Shown one piece after another: positions 3,391 to 29,351 of a DNA stretch of 32,491 nucleotides. The notes beneath the pieces are model-generated. The model had not been told where the DNA came from. It searched no databases and saw only the letters and a program-made list of their open reading frames with translations. Within the stretch, counting starts at the first letter, position 1, and every line of letters starts with the position of its first letter. Made by a program: the position numbers and the translations under genes. This stretch comes from a virus, in the IMG/VR virus record IMGVR_UViG_3300032246_001121, positions 1 to 32,491 of that record; one strand, written 5' to 3'.

Positions 3391-3792
3391 TTAAATCACA
3401 CCGCCCTTGTCGCAGTTTGGGCAAGTGTATGAGCGACTAGCGCAAACTTCGTTGCAACATTCACAAAATTCTTTTGTAGTTATGCCAACTAATTCGGCCT
3501 TAGTGTTTGCGCTGATTGTTGTGTCATGCAGGTTACAGATTGCAGACCATTTGCCGTCTGTATCATCTAGCCCTAAATCAACTGACTTACCAATTTCAAT
3601 TTCTACTTTCGCTAATTTGGCTATACATCTTGTGCAAGCAAAATCATCTGCGTAATGTGCCTGTGTTTCTGAACCAATAAAACGAGAGTTGCAGGTTGCT
3701 GTTGTTCCATCATGTGAAAGATGCACAAGGTTTGTTTTGTAATCGTGCATTAGTTTGAAACCTAGTGCGACTGCTTTAACTTTTGCGTTCAT
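3391..3792 (-). CDS. Cys-rich putative zinc-binding early protein
   Basis: The 133-aa protein has several metal-ligand pairs: CTRC near residue 54, the segment KWSAICNLHDTTISANTKAE, a CECCNEVC cluster and a final CPNC. The block W-x2-ICxxH followed by a helix and an FCxxC pair resembles a small zinc-finger-like unit common in actinophage proteins of unknown role. Start ATG at 3792 has AGGAG 11 bases upstream and its own promoter cassette. It is the most downstream gene on the leftward strand and ends at the shared terminator. It is transcribed from a separate promoter and is not coupled to the upstream gene (gap of 90 bases). Confidence 0.7.
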   Translation of the reverse strand: MNAKVKAVALGFKLMHDYKTNLVHLSHDGTTATCNSRFIGSETQAHYADDFACTRCIAKLAKVEIEIGKSVDLGLDDTDGKWSAICNLHDTTISANTKAELVGITTKEFCECCNEVCASRSYTCPNCDKGGVI

Positions 3793-3812: not shown

Positions 3813-3905
3813 GCCCCCTCTGGGCTATGCCTCAATCATACGAGCAAAAGAAACAAACGCGCAACTCTTTTACAAAACTTTTTTATTCCCCTTTATTTGC
3901 AAGGG
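3813..3905 (-). promoter_or_regulatory. Early promoter cassette, copy A (leftward)
   Basis: Read leftward: dyad CCCTTGCAAATAAAGGGG (3905-3888), an A-rich stretch, -35 TTGCGC (3864-3859), an 18-bp spacer, -10 TATGAT (3840-3835), then at about +4 the mini-hairpin GCCC-AGAGG-GGGC (3825-3813), followed by an AAGGAG ribosome-binding site. The dyad overlaps the 3' end of the DUF6378-like gene. The same order of elements occurs at five other places in the window. Confidence 0.75.
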
Positions 3906-4551: not shown

Positions 4552-4736
4552 AGCCGCTCACTTTTCATCCACATAAATACTTCAGGATAGTCTAACGCCA
4601 TTTGGTTATAGATTGGTGTGCTGGCATCGGTGACCTCATCAAACTGGTCAGCGGTCTTGTAGCCCTTTGTGTGACCTAGTAGGTATGAAATGAATCCGAT
4701 TACTGGAATTGAAATGATTAGGATTGCGTTAAGCAT
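4548..4736 (-). CDS. Small single-pass membrane protein
   Basis: The 62-aa protein starts with the hydrophobic segment MLNAILIISIPVIGFISYLL (residues 1-20), then GHTKGYKTADQFDE and an acidic/aromatic C-terminal part (YPEVFMWMKSERL). One membrane helix with a cytoplasmic or external tail. I chose ATG at 4736 rather than the in-frame start at 4799 because GAAAGGAAAAG lies just upstream and because the longer version would run deep into the WhiB gene. The start overlaps the WhiB stop by eight bases. Unknown function; a membrane-targeted early protein. Confidence 0.6.
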   Translation of the reverse strand: MLNAILIISIPVIGFISYLLGHTKGYKTADQFDEVTDASTPIYNQMALDYPEVFMWMKSERL

Positions 4737-5085
4737 CTTGCTTTTCCTTTCTTGTTTTTGCCGATTTCTTGGCTCGTAGTTTTCGGTGCGCTTTTGCATC
4801 GTCTGATTGGGATAGAAAGTAGTCTAGGTATTGTGCGGTTAGTGGGATGCCTACGATGCCGCGTTGCTTTCGCATGGTGCGCCGTTGTGCCTCTGTTGTG
4901 CCAGCCCAGATTCCCTCAACCTTTACGGCCAGAGAGTAGTCCAAGCATTTTGTGTATAGCGGACAGGTTGAGCAAATCCCGATTGCGGTTTTTACTGCCG
5001 CGGATTCTTGTTCGCGGCTGTCGGGGAAAAAGAAATCAACTCCGACTTCCGCACAGGCCGCATCGCTAAAGTCTGGCATCTTCAT
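4729..5085 (-). CDS. WhiB-family Fe-S transcription factor (first of two)
   Basis: The 118-aa protein has the WhiB Cys set C11, C38, C41, C47 (C...CxxCxxxxxC), which ligates a [4Fe-4S] cluster, followed by the G(I)W turn EGIWAGTT (58-64) and a basic C-terminal region (RRTMRKQRG and a Lys/Arg-rich tail). WhiB proteins act with the principal sigma factor of Actinobacteria; phage versions can block or redirect host promoters. The start has GAGG seven bases upstream and overlaps the upstream gene stop as ATGA. It sits in the middle of the leftward operon, so it should be made early. A second WhiB lies at 9293 on the other strand. Confidence 0.9.
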   Translation of the reverse strand: MKMPDFSDAACAEVGVDFFFPDSREQESAAVKTAIGICSTCPLYTKCLDYSLAVKVEGIWAGTTEAQRRTMRKQRGIVGIPLTAQYLDYFLSQSDDAKAHRKLRAKKSAKTRKEKQDA

Positions 5086-5496: not shown

Positions 5497-5717
5497 TACG
5501 CATCTACCTTTTTGCAAATCCAATTTGTGTCTGTGATTTCAAGTTGAACCAAGCCGCGAGCAAACAAACTTTTTGCTGTTGCAAGATTCGCGCATGGCAT
5601 ACCTTTTTCAATAACCCAACCTGCGTTTATTTCGCGCAACATATTTAGTTGTTTGTGAGTTAAACCTGCGCGTGTGTAGCGGTGGCCGCCGTTCGCTCCG
5701 TTGTGACGATTTGCCAT
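5496..5717 (-). CDS. Small basic early protein
   Basis: The 73-aa product starts MANRHNGANGGHRYTRAGLT and has a helix (HKQLNMLREINAGW), then CANLATAKSLFARGLVQLEI and a final WICKKVDA. The arrangement helix - helix - strand pair suggests a minimal winged-helix, with AKSLFARGLV as the recognition-like helix, though this is only a pattern impression. Both ends use TAATG junctions with the neighbours, so it is clearly part of the operon. Confidence 0.6.
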   Translation of the reverse strand: MANRHNGANGGHRYTRAGLTHKQLNMLREINAGWVIEKGMPCANLATAKSLFARGLVQLEITDTNWICKKVDA

Positions 5718-5947
5718 TACGCACCGACCAATTCTGCAACAAACTTTTTAGCATCAGACAGTTTTGAAAAAGAACGGCTCTCTGTCATTAAGTCAGAAAC
5801 AAATACTGAGTAACTAACTTCGTTGAAAGAAATGCCGCGCTCGCTCCGACTACTGAAACGGTCAATGCGAATTTCTTTGTTATCAACTTCAGTTACATAA
5901 GCAACGATGTCATTGCTAAAGAAACTGCGTTCGATTGTGTATTTCAT
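5717..5947 (-). CDS. Small early protein, family 1 paralogue (AKKFV type)
   Basis: First gene of the leftward operon; 76 aa, MKYTIERSFFSNDIVAYV at the start and FSKLSDAKKFVAELVGA at the end. ATG at 5947 is chosen because AAAGGCAAGAAA precedes it and because the longer in-frame start at 6010 would run through the promoter and leader hairpin. Three or four beta strands followed by one C-terminal helix match the proteins at 6177 and 10801, with a shared ending F-[SK]-x-[LI]-x-x-AK-[KE]-[FY]. The final codons GGTGCG plus stop TAA form a recurrent junction with the next ATG. Function unknown; first position suggests an immediate-early role. Confidence 0.68.
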   Translation of the reverse strand: MKYTIERSFFSNDIVAYVTEVDNKEIRIDRFSSRSERGISFNEVSYSVFVSDLMTESRSFSKLSDAKKFVAELVGA

Positions 5948-5968: not shown

Positions 5969-6069
5969 GTACCTCTCTGGTACAAAACAAACACTACACG
6001 AATCAAACAAAGATGCAAGTTGATTTGAAAACTTTTTTTAGAAACCTTGAAAACCCTTGCAAATAAAGG
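5969..6069 (-). promoter_or_regulatory. Early promoter cassette, copy B (leftward)
   Basis: Read leftward: dyad CCTTTATTTGCAAGGG (6069-6054, shared with the divergent rightward cassette), an A7 tract near 6040-6033, -35 TTGCAT (6018-6013), probable -10 TAGTGT (5996-5991, 16-bp spacer), then the leader hairpin GTACC-AGAGA-GGTAC (5983-5969) and the AAAGGCAAG site before ATG 5947. The -10 is the least certain part. Confidence 0.7.
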
Positions 6070-6157
6070 CCGACACGCGGTACAAAAAATTAATCATGAA
6101 TAAGTTGCATCTCAATTCAAACTGTGTGTATGCTAGGGGTAACAGGTCAGAGTGACC
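6054..6157 (+). promoter_or_regulatory. Early promoter cassette, copy C (rightward)
   Basis: Dyad CCCTTGCAAATAAAGG (6054-6069), A6 tract near 6083, -35 TTGCAT (6105-6110), 18-bp spacer with TCAATTCAAACTGTG, -10 TATGCT (6129-6134), leader hairpin GGTC-AGAGT-GACC (6145-6157), then AAAAGGAG seven bases before ATG 6177. The dyad is shared with the divergent leftward promoter, so one regulator could control both early operons. Confidence 0.8.
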
Positions 6158-6176
6158 CGAACAAAAGGAGTATAAA

Positions 6177-6380
6177 ATGAACAACATCAAATGGGTTCGT
6201 GAGGATTACGGTTTTGGTAATCTCGCTTACAAGAGCGAAGTTGGTTACATTCAAAAAGTTGTCAAACCTCGTAACCCTGCTTGCCGCTCACGCAAAGATT
6301 ATTTTGAATATCAGATTGCTGGCAAAAGATTTAGCACACTTGCTCAAGCAAAAAAGTTTGCAGAAAAAGTAGGTGCGTAA
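6177..6380 (+). CDS. Small early protein, family 1 paralogue
   Basis: First gene of the rightward early operon; 67 aa with MNNIKWVREDYGFGNLAYKS at the start and RFSTLAQAKKFAEKVGA at the end. The N-terminal NIKW and the C-terminal F-S-x-L-x-x-AKKF helix match the proteins at 5717 (opposite strand) and 10801. Predicted as a few beta strands and one helix, basic overall. AAAAGGAG lies seven bases upstream. The gene ends in GGTGCGTAATC, with the next ATG two bases after the stop. Unknown function; likely an early host-takeover or regulatory protein. Confidence 0.68.
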   Translation: MNNIKWVREDYGFGNLAYKSEVGYIQKVVKPRNPACRSRKDYFEYQIAGKRFSTLAQAKKFAEKVGA

Positions 6381-6801: not shown

Positions 6802-6835
6802 GGCTGGCCACTCCGAGCAACTAGAGTGGCCAGCC
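6802..6835 (+). terminator. Strong hairpin between early genes
   Basis: GGCTGGCCACTC pairs perfectly with GAGTGGCCAGCC (12 bp) around the loop CGAGCAACTA. No U-run follows (AACTGCAAC), so it could be a leaky or factor-dependent terminator or an mRNA processing/stability element between the small early genes and the recombination module. No promoter is obvious in the 49 bases before the next ATG. Confidence 0.6.
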
Positions 6836-9292: not shown

Positions 9293-9589
9293 GTGACTGG
9301 CTACTATCCAAAATTTACGATACCGAATTTACCTAACGCCTCGTGTAACGATAAGACTATTGACCCTGACATTTTTTACGCCGATGATTGCCAGATACCT
9401 GATAAGGCTGTTGTAGAAAAAGCGCGTGAGATTTGTTTGCCATGTGTTGAGCGCGTGGCTTGTTTGATGTGGGCATTACAGAATGAAACTTTTGGTATGT
9501 GGGGCGGCATGACAGCGAACGAACGCAGATACTTTAAGCAACGCAAGATGAAAAAGTTAGAACACTTGAAAGACTTAGGATTGATTTAG
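9293..9589 (+). CDS. WhiB-family Fe-S transcription factor (second)
   Basis: The 98-aa protein has C18 and C33 upstream and then CxxC-x5-C (C48, C51, C57), followed by FGMWGGMT (67-74), the WhiB glycine-tryptophan turn, and a basic end (RRYFKQRKMKKLEH). Either C18 or C33 completes the four-Cys cluster; C33, inside a YADDC context, is the likelier by alignment. It differs clearly from the WhiB at 4729 (shorter tail, longer N-terminus), so the pair is not a recent duplication. The GTG start has no Shine-Dalgarno sequence but a -10-like box at leaderless distance. It probably modulates host RNA polymerase at a different stage from the leftward WhiB. Confidence 0.88.
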   Translation: MTGYYPKFTIPNLPNASCNDKTIDPDIFYADDCQIPDKAVVEKAREICLPCVERVACLMWALQNETFGMWGGMTANERRYFKQRKMKKLEHLKDLGLI

Positions 9590-10384: not shown

Positions 10385-10486
10385 CCTTGCGGTTAAAGGG
10401 AAATTTTGCCTAAAAAAATAATTGCGAAATAAGTTGTATCTCAATTCAAACTGTGTCTATACTAGAGATGTGGGTCAGGGTGACCC
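10385..10486 (+). promoter_or_regulatory. Early promoter cassette, copy D (rightward)
   Basis: Dyad CCTTGCGGTTAAAGG (10385-10399), A7 tract near 10412, -35 TTGTAT (10434-10439), 18-bp spacer, -10 TATACT (10458-10463), leader hairpin GGGTC-AGGGT-GACCC (10472-10486), then AGAAAGGCAAGAAAATG with the start at 10505. The segment from -35 to -10 is nearly identical to copy C (TCAATTCAAACTGTGT shared). Confidence 0.8.
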
Positions 10487-10504: not shown

Positions 10505-10801
10505 ATGAACATCACAACCGCTAAAGAAATCGTTGCTCAGTTTGAATCAAAGGGCTGGGAAATCAAAGTAGAACAAGACACTAATGACCGCTACTGGGTA
10601 TTTGTTTCTAACTCAAATCACACAGCATGGTACGACTCATTTGATACATACTTCATTGCAGTCAATCTAGATACTTACACCAAGCGTTGCCACACTCGTA
10701 TCTCGGCACATCGTTTCGGCAAGGTAGTTGAAGTTAAGCAACGCGCACTTGCAACCTACGCTTTGTACGCAATGAACTACAACGCAAAGGTAGGTGCGTA
10801 A
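10505..10801 (+). CDS. Small early protein of unknown function
   Basis: The 98-aa product begins MNITTAKEIVAQFESKGWEI, has a strand-turn-strand region (DRYWVFVSNSNHTAWYDSFD) and ends in a helical/basic part with NYNAKVGA. AAAGGCAAGAAA precedes the ATG directly. The final GGTGCGTAATG overlaps the next start by one base. The YWVFVSNSN strand pattern is loosely like the other tiny early proteins, but I cannot assign it to either paralogue family. Unknown function. Confidence 0.62.
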   Translation: MNITTAKEIVAQFESKGWEIKVEQDTNDRYWVFVSNSNHTAWYDSFDTYFIAVNLDTYTKRCHTRISAHRFGKVVEVKQRALATYALYAMNYNAKVGA

Positions 10802-14959: not shown

Positions 14960-15044
14960 AAACAAAGGGAAAAAAATAGTTGTGAAATAAGTTGCATCAA
15001 GATTCAAACTATGCGTATACTAGAACCACAAGCCCAGAGAGGGC
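14953..15044 (+). promoter_or_regulatory. Early promoter cassette, copy E (rightward)
   Basis: Dyad CCCTTGAAAACAAAGGG (14953-14969), A-tract directly after it, -35 TTGCAT (14992-14997), 18-bp spacer, -10 TATACT (15016-15021), leader hairpin GCCC-AGAGA-GGGC (15032-15044), then AGAAAAGGAAAAAC and ATG 15067. The dyad overlaps the 3' end of the preceding small gene, as in copy A. Confidence 0.8.
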
Positions 15045-15066: not shown

Positions 15067-15423
15067 ATGAACGCAACAACCGAAGTAACAACAACCGAAT
15101 ACCTAAATGAAATCAAATTCCGTAACGCTGTAAAGCGCACACTAGGTTCAGTCATTGGCAAAAATTCTTATGACCGTAGCGGCTACACAGTAAACCCAAT
15201 CACTAGCGTTGATGGTGGATGGTTCACAGTTGGTTACATGACATACGGAACAATAGGCAAGATGAACGAGGAATCAGTTTTAAGATTCATGCAAACTCGC
15301 GAGAACATGATTTACAGTTTGATTGAGGCAGGATTTGAAACCAAGAAAATTGAAATCACTAAGACATGGGGCGGCGTTAAAGAAACTACACAGGTTCGTG
15401 TATGGCGCAAGGCCGCGAAGTAA
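15067..15423 (+). CDS. Early protein of unknown function
   Basis: From ATG at 15067 the product has 118 aa: MNATTEVTTTEYLNEIKFRN, VKRTLGSVIGKN, a strand pair around DRSGYTVNPITSVDGGWFTV and a helical middle (LRFMQTRENMIYSLIEAGF) with a basic last strand (TQVRVWRKAAK). The in-frame extension to 14992 would cross the promoter and hairpin and is rejected. First gene of the third rightward early unit. No family recognised. Confidence 0.6.
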   Translation: MNATTEVTTTEYLNEIKFRNAVKRTLGSVIGKNSYDRSGYTVNPITSVDGGWFTVGYMTYGTIGKMNEESVLRFMQTRENMIYSLIEAGFETKKIEITKTWGGVKETTQVRVWRKAAK

Positions 15424-21136: not shown

Positions 21137-21934
21137 ATGGCTGGCGAGATTACTGTAACTCCAACTGTTGTTAATGTTAATGCAACTACTTCACCTGTTG
21201 CCATAACTGTTACCGAATCGCCTGTTACTGTCACTACAACTAATCAAGGTATTCAGGGTGCGACTGGTAGTGCAGGGCAAATCAATTCTGTTTCGGCTAC
21301 TACTCTTGCGGCAGGTTCGTCAGCAACAGTTGTAAACAATGGCACGACTACTAATGCTCAACTCGCGTTTGGTATCCCTAAAGGTGATAAAGGCGATACA
21401 GGTACGGCGGCAACTGCAACGGCAGGTTCAACTACTACGGGTGCGGCAGGTACAAGCGCAACTGTTGTCAATAGCGGTACTTCATCGGCGGCAGTTTTTG
21501 ATTTCACTATCCCTCGCGGTAACACAGGTGCAACAGGTCAGGGATTCACATATCGCAACGCATGGGTATCAGGTACAAGTTATGCGGCTTACGATGTTGT
21601 TACTTACAACGGTTCAACTTATGTTTGTATCTTGGCCGTATCGGGTACTACTGTTCCATCTAGCGATTCAAGTCATTGGACTTTAACAGCATCTAAAGGC
21701 GATACTGGCGATACTGGTACAGCGGCTACCGCAACCGCTGGCACTACTACAACTGTTGATGGTTACACTTCCGCGAATGTTGTTAATGATGGTTCTACAA
21801 GTGCGGCAGTTTTCAATTTTACTATCCCAACGGGTGTAGCAATCGGAGCATCCTCCCCGTCTAACACGGGTGTATTGTGGGCTGATACAACTACATCACC
21901 AACTATCACCGCTATCAATGGAGGCACAGCATGA
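21137..21934 (+). CDS. Collagen-like fibre protein with CBM5/12-like insert
   Basis: The 265-aa protein combines an N-terminal beta region, short Gly-X-Y stretches (GDKGDTGTA, GNTGATGQG, GDTGDTGTA) and, at about residues 138-185, a module reading YRNAWVSGTSYAAYDVVTYN then GSTYVCILAVSG...HWTLTA, which resembles carbohydrate-binding modules of families 5/12 (W...Y..YDVV.Y.GS.Y......P...HW). It repeats a unit ending GTAATATAG twice. Such proteins are trimeric fibres that may bind host-surface or particulate polysaccharides. The stop overlaps the next start (ATGA). Confidence 0.72.
   Translation: MAGEITVTPTVVNVNATTSPVAITVTESPVTVTTTNQGIQGATGSAGQINSVSATTLAAGSSATVVNNGTTTNAQLAFGIPKGDKGDTGTAATATAGSTTTGAAGTSATVVNSGTSSAAVFDFTIPRGNTGATGQGFTYRNAWVSGTSYAAYDVVTYNGSTYVCILAVSGTTVPSSDSSHWTLTASKGDTGDTGTAATATAGTTTTVDGYTSANVVNDGSTSAAVFNFTIPTGVAIGASSPSNTGVLWADTTTSPTITAINGGTA
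21376..21830 (+). repeat. Duplicated fibre repeat unit
   Basis: Two related segments, beginning near 21380 and 21694, encode KGDKGDTGTAATATAGSTTT and KGDTGDTGTAATATAGTTTT, each followed by a SANVVN/SATVVN and AAVFxFTIP block. The DNA copies differ mostly at third codon positions, so the duplication is old or under selection. Confidence 0.6.
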
Positions 21935-28757: not shown

Positions 28758-28846
28758 CCTTTGTTTGTAAGGAAAAAAACTTTGTGTAAATAGTTGCATC
28801 TTTGTTTGTTTTGGGTTTATGATTGAGGTACAAGGTCAGAGCGACC
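28758..28846 (+). promoter_or_regulatory. Early promoter cassette, copy F (moron promoter)
   Basis: Dyad CCTTTGTTTGTAAGG (28758-28772), A7 tract directly after, -35 TTGCAT (28794-28799), 18-bp spacer, -10 TATGAT (28818-28823), leader hairpin GGTC-AGAGC-GACC (28834-28846), then AGAAAGGCAAGAAAATG with start at 28866. The 17 bases before the start equal those of copy D. Confidence 0.82.
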
Positions 28847-28865: not shown

Positions 28866-29351
28866 ATGGCAAAGCAAGCAATGTGTACGAAGTGCGGTTC
28901 AACCGATGTATTTTGGCATGAGAATCGTAACGGCAAGTGGGTATTGTGTCGCAAGGTTGAATCACTTTATGAAAATGGCCGCGCTAGTTGGATTGAACCT
29001 CATTACTGCGATTACAAAGAAATGTCTGTTGAGTTCATGATTGAACAATACATTGAGAAAGTTGAAAAAGTTTTTTCAAAGCCAACTGCAAAAGATTGGA
29101 AAGAGTTAAGTGCTGTTGCTGACTTCAACGGTCAGTTGAAATCATTGCGTACAAAACTTGGCGAGAATGTTCCATCAATTCCTGTTGAAGTTTTTAAGGG
29201 TCGTAAAGTTCCTACTGGTACTGTCGGCGAGGTTATTTGGTTTGGTGTTGATGGTTTCGGCACAATCAAAGTTGGTATCAAAGATGCTGAGGGTAACGCT
29301 CACTTCACCGCGATTACCAATGTGCGATTTGTAGAAACTGCGAACGCTTAA
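28866..29351 (+). CDS. Moron protein: zinc ribbon plus SH3-like domain
   Basis: The 161-aa protein begins with a zinc ribbon (CTKCGSTDVFWHENRNGKW then VLCRK, with H and C ligands around CDY), has a helical middle (YIEKVEKVFSKPTAKDWKEL) and a C-terminal SH3-like unit: FKGRKVPTGTVGEVIWFGVD followed by FGTIKVGIKDAEGNAHFT and NVRFVE. The K-G-R-K-V-P-x-G-T-x-G-x-V pattern is common in actinophage proteins. It has its own early-type promoter and terminator inside the late structural operon, which is the definition of a moron. It may act on nucleic acids or on translation; unproven. Confidence 0.78.
   Translation: MAKQAMCTKCGSTDVFWHENRNGKWVLCRKVESLYENGRASWIEPHYCDYKEMSVEFMIEQYIEKVEKVFSKPTAKDWKELSAVADFNGQLKSLRTKLGENVPSIPVEVFKGRKVPTGTVGEVIWFGVDGFGTIKVGIKDAEGNAHFTAITNVRFVETANA

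Follow-up and report, generated by a model that had tools for sequence, protein, structure and literature searches.

Six leaders in the window, by which we mean the whole analysed stretch of 32,491 bases (an IMG/VR virus record), carry a mini-hairpin at the predicted 5′ end of the transcript. Covariation strongly supports it as an RNA element of these uncultured phages. At a probability of roughly one in two, we interpret it as the 5′-terminal element of a cassette of promoter and leader, serving to protect the front of the mRNA without obstructing the ribosome site. The hairpin would form from the first ~20 nucleotides of the phage mRNA, in a cassette of promoter, 1–4 unpaired nucleotides, 4–5 bp hairpin, purine-rich linker, Shine-Dalgarno sequence and start codon; the structured 5′ end would slow the onset of 5′-end-dependent decay, and the hairpin would be kept clear of the ribosome-binding site. 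That transcription starts there, that the RNA folds so in the cell and that mRNA lifetime and translation are affected are inferences. The hairpin probably shields the 5′ end of the message, and it may act as a lineage-specific tag.

Six promoter-leader cassettes in a tailed phage

The window encodes a large terminase, a portal, a single-strand annealing protein, an exonuclease, SSB, HNH and two WhiB-like genes, and is therefore assigned to a tailed phage. WhiB is considered an indicator of actinophages (PMC10202952), and the best relatives of the single-strand annealing protein are in mycobacteriophages; the phages bearing the leader hairpin probably infect actinobacteria. The two WhiB-like genes (Pfam PF02467) lie on opposite strands, at 4729–5085 (−) and 9293–9589 (+). 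Collagen-like glycine repeats (GATGSAGQ, GDKGDTGT) at 21137–21934 perhaps belong to a tail fibre. A strong 13-bp inverted repeat at 6802–6835 (GGCTGGCCACTC...GAGTGGCCAGCC) separates two plus-strand genes and is terminator-like on the minus strand only, the plus strand having no T run after the repeat.

All six cassettes share one order: TTGC or TTGT, 16–18 nt, TANNNT, the predicted start, 1–4 nt, the hairpin, the linker and ATG. Hairpins begin between predicted +2 and +5, and the ATG lies 18–22 nt past their end. The predicted start base is A in four leaders, G in one and T in one, and the linker is GAACAGAAAGG-like and carries the Shine-Dalgarno sequence. All six hairpins were found exactly where the earlier note had located them; the position of about +5 that it gave is right for three, the others beginning at predicted +2, +3 and +4.

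Two of the cassettes are on the minus strand. The hairpin GCCC-AGAGG-GGGC (3813..3825, predicted +4 to +16) follows the promoter-like pair TTGCGC (3859–3864) and TATGAT (3835–3840), 18 nt apart, with a start predicted from conservation at A3828; the 133-aa gene behind it (3391..3792, −) is without a Pfam match and has no assigned function. GTACC-AGAGA-GGTAC (5969..5983, predicted +2 to +16) follows TTGCAT (6013–6018), 16 nt and TAGTGT (5991–5996), and stands before a 76-aa gene (5717..5947, −; start codon 5945–5947).

On the plus strand, GGTC-AGAGT-GACC (6145..6157, predicted +5 to +17) is preceded by TTGCAT (6105–6110), 18 nt, TATGCT (6129–6134) and the predicted start A6141. Downstream of it come a Shine-Dalgarno sequence, AAAGGAG (6164..6170), which is not within the hairpin, and a 67-aa gene (6177..6380) heading a run of genes, among them those for the single-strand annealing protein and the exonuclease. 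The hairpin GGGTC-AGGGT-GACCC (10472..10486, predicted +3 to +17) lies between the pair TTGTAT (10434–10439) and TATACT (10458–10463), spaced by 18 nt, and a 98-aa gene (10505..10801). Behind TTGCAT (14992–14997), again 18 nt from its TATACT (15016–15021), GCCC-AGAGA-GGGC (15032..15044, predicted +5 to +17) leads a 118-aa gene (15067..15423). The last hairpin, GGTC-AGAGC-GACC (28834..28846, predicted +5 to +17), sits within the structural-gene region; its promoter-like pair is TTGCAT (28794–28799) and TATGAT (28818–28823), 18 nt apart, its predicted start is A28830, and a 161-aa gene with no assigned function (28866..29351) follows. Given this site, the early timing that the earlier note ascribes to the transcripts is presumptive.

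The window promoters fall below the threshold of a generic sigma-70 scan. Upon folding of the six leaders, the hairpin was the main structure and the Shine-Dalgarno sequence was essentially unpaired. Folding energies ranged from −5 to −9 kcal/mol, with shuffle z-scores of −0.7 to −3.6, and were not exceptional in every case.

Pairing is kept while the arms change

The window holds six AGRGN hairpins (5-nt loop, at least four Watson-Crick pairs) against 1.8 expected anywhere, and 6/6 are in leaders; the loop motif taken by itself, whatever its stem or position, shows no enrichment (11 vs 8.5 expected). Hairpins with AGAGN or AGGGN loops are confined to such leaders in four phages: the window, G005 (found through its capsid protein, 72% identity), G007 (found by a promoter pattern blind to the hairpin) and G024. 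The AGRGN hairpin totals in the latter three (2, 3 and 2) are near chance expectation, only their placement being remarkable.

In an alignment of 14 leaders from three phages, the window and its relatives G005 and G007, every leader (14/14) retains its four base pairs. Standard pairs fill 56 of 56 pair cells, and 17 cells are altered on both sides. As the earlier note had claimed, the stems covary: both-side changes occur at three of the four pairs; the innermost C-G pair is invariant. The covariation score of 0.788 (0.145 when shuffled) was reached by 0 of 500 shuffles, a test that asks which arms match and is favoured by the choice of rows for having a hairpin. Shuffled 3′ letters still paired in 67% of cells, and sliding the partner by 1–3 columns destroyed the pairing. 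When whole 3′ arms were shuffled in 20,000 trials, a mean of 3.9 and a maximum of 11 of the 14 leaders were fully paired.

These results bear on the least probable explanation considered, a recent duplication of one leader cassette whose hairpin has no function. The leaders of one phage do share promoter and Shine-Dalgarno sequences, as duplication would leave them. However, without function the arms should drift out of pairing, and the stems differ yet are always paired, an outcome matched by none of the 500 shuffles.

Placement was assessed across 12 phage contigs, where TANNNT lies 9–10 nt upstream of the hairpin in 20 cases, compared with 0–2 in shuffled genomes; because the contigs include those in which the pattern was first noticed, this figure gauges strength and is not a blind test. 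For hairpins before Shine-Dalgarno starts in these contigs, the distance to TANNNT peaks sharply at exactly 10 nt.

The loop, which is not palindromic, reads without exception in the sense direction of the gene downstream. Together with the pairing kept despite arm changes and the occurrence in leaders only, this supports a structure in the RNA over a DNA operator bound by a protein, in agreement with the earlier note. We regard it as very improbable that the element acts as DNA, as an operator or a promoter part within the initially transcribed region, and that its pairing is a by-product of palindromic recognition. A repressor would be well served by the +2 to +17 position, and the promoter is conserved too, but the two arms vary freely and in concert, what stays constant is the non-palindromic middle, and the orientation of the element always follows transcription.

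Loops are shared within lineages and differ between them

The leaders of G005 and G007 include GCCC-AGGGT-GGGC, GCGC-AGGGT-GCGC, GCGC-ACAGG-GCGC, GGTC-AGAGT-GACC, GCGC-AGAGT-GCGC and GTGCC-AGAGT-GGTAC. A covariance model found further leaders in both phages and in a new one, G024, with stems such as GTCC/GGGC and GGGC/GCCU. Since rows beyond the first 14 were found by a model of those 14, not all are independent, and leaders from hairpin-blind patterns are the cleaner support. In total, the family (fam1) comprises 21 leaders from six phages with many stem types, G022 and G006 giving single examples. Mean pairwise identity over the 21 leaders is 0.76 in the loop, 0.42 in the stem and 0.37 in the −10 region, the last being somewhat reduced by small register shifts. 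In the wider family the loop varies at its second, third and fifth positions (AGRGN, ACAGG). The close relative G006 has only two weak versions of the hairpin and none was seen in G026, an incomplete contig; as the contigs are incomplete, such scarcity or absence says little.

Outside this family, the layout is retained with other loops. All five leaders of G025 have the loop GTAAGAA (5/5) on the stems CGGG/CCCG (twice), CGGC/GCCG, GGG/CCC and GGC/GCC. In G001, an unrelated phage, 3/3 leaders have the loop [CA]GGACA, all on one stem. Four further phages (G009, G010, L201, L207) show the same layout with A-rich loops that differ within each phage. A hairpin-blind scan with a 20-nt Shine-Dalgarno/start pattern revealed a hairpin directly upstream of the leader pattern in most contigs, for example GGTTCG-AGAGAA-CGAACC, GATCCG-AGAGAA-CGGATC, GGTTCA-AAAGAA-TGAACC and GGGCT-GGTT-AGCCC; L099, L111 and L114 have the pattern and no hairpin. 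Relatives by terminase (~55–62% identity) have a hairpin in the same place with varied loops, including GCCC-AAAG-GGGC, GGGGC-ATAA-GCCCC, GGATC-AAACA-GATCC and GGGGC-AACC-GCCCC.

A universally constant AGAGN loop, as the earlier note had it, is therefore contradicted by relatives with GTAAGAA (G025), [CA]GGACA (G001) or A-rich mixtures. That note had also named unpaired stems or random loops in homologous cassettes as evidence against the element; in the relatives the stems stay paired, and other loops do occur. Because stem and position are kept while the loop changes, the loop is a lineage trait.

Shared genes stand behind the leader of the resident phage

The 161-aa gene of the window is 96% identical to a gene of G001 (at position ~27.9 kb, minus strand), where the copy follows G001's own promoter and the hairpin ATCAGC-CGGACA-GCTGAT. 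No counterpart of the window's terminase was detected in G001, which is 63.7 kb long. Similarly, the G001 gene 77% identical to the 133-aa gene carries G001's hairpin type, and the G025 gene 81% identical to the 98-aa gene has the leader CGGG-GTAAGAA-CCCG. These three clear cases (77–96%) indicate that the promoter-leader belongs to the phage and that genes are exchanged, a natural experiment that sets the same gene behind the leaders of different phages. The pattern fits either a lineage-specific loop reader or the entry of genes into resident cassettes by recombination at the start codon. The window's 161-aa gene (28866–29351), lying among structural genes with its own promoter, appears to be a recently transferred moron.

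Probable 5′-end protection and a possible reader of the loop

In E. coli and B. subtilis, 5′ hairpins stabilise mRNA (PMC3997798, PMC7509114). A hairpin located at the 5′ end or close to it can stabilise an mRNA over long stretches and hinder 5′-end conversion by RppH (PMC3997798), and in B. subtilis a stem-loop too near the Shine-Dalgarno sequence lowered stability (PMC7509114), a spacing that the linker of the phage leaders avoids. The fixed place near the predicted 5′ end, the free Shine-Dalgarno sequence and this reported stabilisation favour 5′-end protection. Known stabilising hairpins (E. coli ompA and papA, the B. subtilis aprE leader) resemble the phage leaders, whose 5′ ends are predicted, in lying near the 5′ end with an unstructured ribosome-binding site downstream, and in keeping pairing while stem sequence is free (PMC3997798). 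In contrast to them, the phage hairpin is repeated in up to 5–6 leaders per phage within a stereotyped cassette and its loop is constant within some lineages; stabilisation in the phages is our proposal. Among the roles suggested in the earlier note, protection of 5′ ends fits the wider data best, and binding of a specific protein is one hypothesis among several.

Pure protection demands no loop conservation, yet loop identity exceeds stem identity (0.76 vs 0.42, 21 leaders), and G025 is uniform (5/5). That three lineages each conserve their loop suggests a further constraint, specific to the lineage, beyond plain protection. A possible, though less likely, explanation is that the hairpin is an RNA operator whose loop is read by a lineage-specific RNA-binding protein, of phage or host, controlling translation, stability or timing; the stem would merely present the loop and could drift with compensation. 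This would account for constant loops on varying stems in fam1 (21 leaders, 6 phages) and G025, the 3/3 loops of G001, and the resident phage's loop before shared genes (96% and 77% for G001, 81% for G025). On the other hand, no RNA-binding family was recognisable among the scanned shared ORFs and leader genes, which include many unknown proteins, and the four phages with A-rich loops lack a common loop inside each. Moreover, promoter sequences are also lineage-specific, so cassette duplication accounts for part of the likeness.

The precedent for such an operator is that of gp43 in T4/RB69, a hairpin with a conserved loop, of different length, ~40 nt upstream of the start codon (PMC3014915). 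Like the leaders described here, it is a phage leader hairpin with a conserved loop and a less conserved stem ahead of a start codon (PMC3014915). In contrast to gp43, one gene autoregulated by its product, the present hairpins precede many unrelated genes and lie at the predicted 5′ end. A more specific and more doubtful version is that the hairpin serves as a self-identity tag, a lineage-specific factor reading its own loop and acquired genes being regulated by landing behind the leader. If the loop is truly recognised, these leaders would make up an RNA regulon spanning the phage, its identity specific to the lineage; if not, they would be a compact natural device for 5′ mRNA protection, useful as a leader part and for marking where transcription starts in such phages.

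Short hairpins with a 5-nt, phage-specific loop also occur in early transcripts as the boxB of lambdoid nut sites. An antitermination signal resembling nut/boxB or put, modifying RNA polymerase soon after initiation, is improbable here. The 5-nt loop on a short GC stem, its lineage specificity and the promoter-proximal position in several operons are shared features. The leader hairpin, unlike boxB, lies at the predicted 5′ terminus and is tied to the start codon; the 1–4 nt ahead of it in the predicted transcript are too few to accommodate an upstream boxA. No boxA was found, the Shine-Dalgarno sequence being the sole other conserved element, and the constant distance from hairpin to start codon suggests a role in translation or at the 5′ end.

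Among stabilisers of another kind, phage SP82 has a polypurine, Shine-Dalgarno-type 5′ stabiliser of mRNA. In mycobacterial katG, a short leader element near the ribosome site stabilises mRNA (PMC2358910). Both are unpaired purine tracts, whereas the phage leaders form hairpins. Cluster K mycobacteriophages carry SAS and ESAS repeats just upstream of the start codons of non-structural genes, in subcluster-specific versions (PMC3203893); SAS is the 13-bp GGGATAGGAGCCC, and ESAS repeats span 17 bp, their pairing not being supported according to the authors (PMC3203893). The leader hairpin is likewise a repeated element of probable actinophages, upstream of start codons and with group-specific versions, but its pairing, unlike that of ESAS, is supported. 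SAS itself was rejected as a match: GGGATAGGAGCCC is absent from the window, the best matches having 9 and 10 of 13 positions and lying away from the leaders.

Wider searches and similar elements

Rfam covariance models gave 0 matches above the gathering score in the window, and a fixed DNA pattern of −35 element plus loop returned chance matches only across IMG/VR. Hairpin loops with the complement (CTCT, CCCT) were not enriched, and a kissing-loop partner was discarded. Among 84,980 bacterial and archaeal genomes, the 20-nt Shine-Dalgarno/start pattern had five scattered matches in unrelated taxa, which pointed neither to use of the leader by a host nor to a host itself; one genome match that was inspected, L178, had no such hairpin. 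The phage collection gave no DNA match to the first 24 kb of the window and, in a short-query search, no comparable leader. The three isolated actinophages IndiRoo, MellowYellow (20–70 kb) and DLane (25–58.9 kb) likewise showed no repeated leaders of this type.

Two other elements were observed along the way. In G012 (L189, L190, L182), a phage of 62% GC, the palindrome TGTCCAAGCTTGGACA closely precedes at least two start codons and could be an independent case of a leader hairpin or a DNA operator. In four contigs of 32% GC (L076, L084, L117, L154), an apparently unrelated group of low-GC phages, the hairpin CGGTAGT-ACAC-ACTACCG stands directly before AACAGAAGGGGAAGAAAATG.
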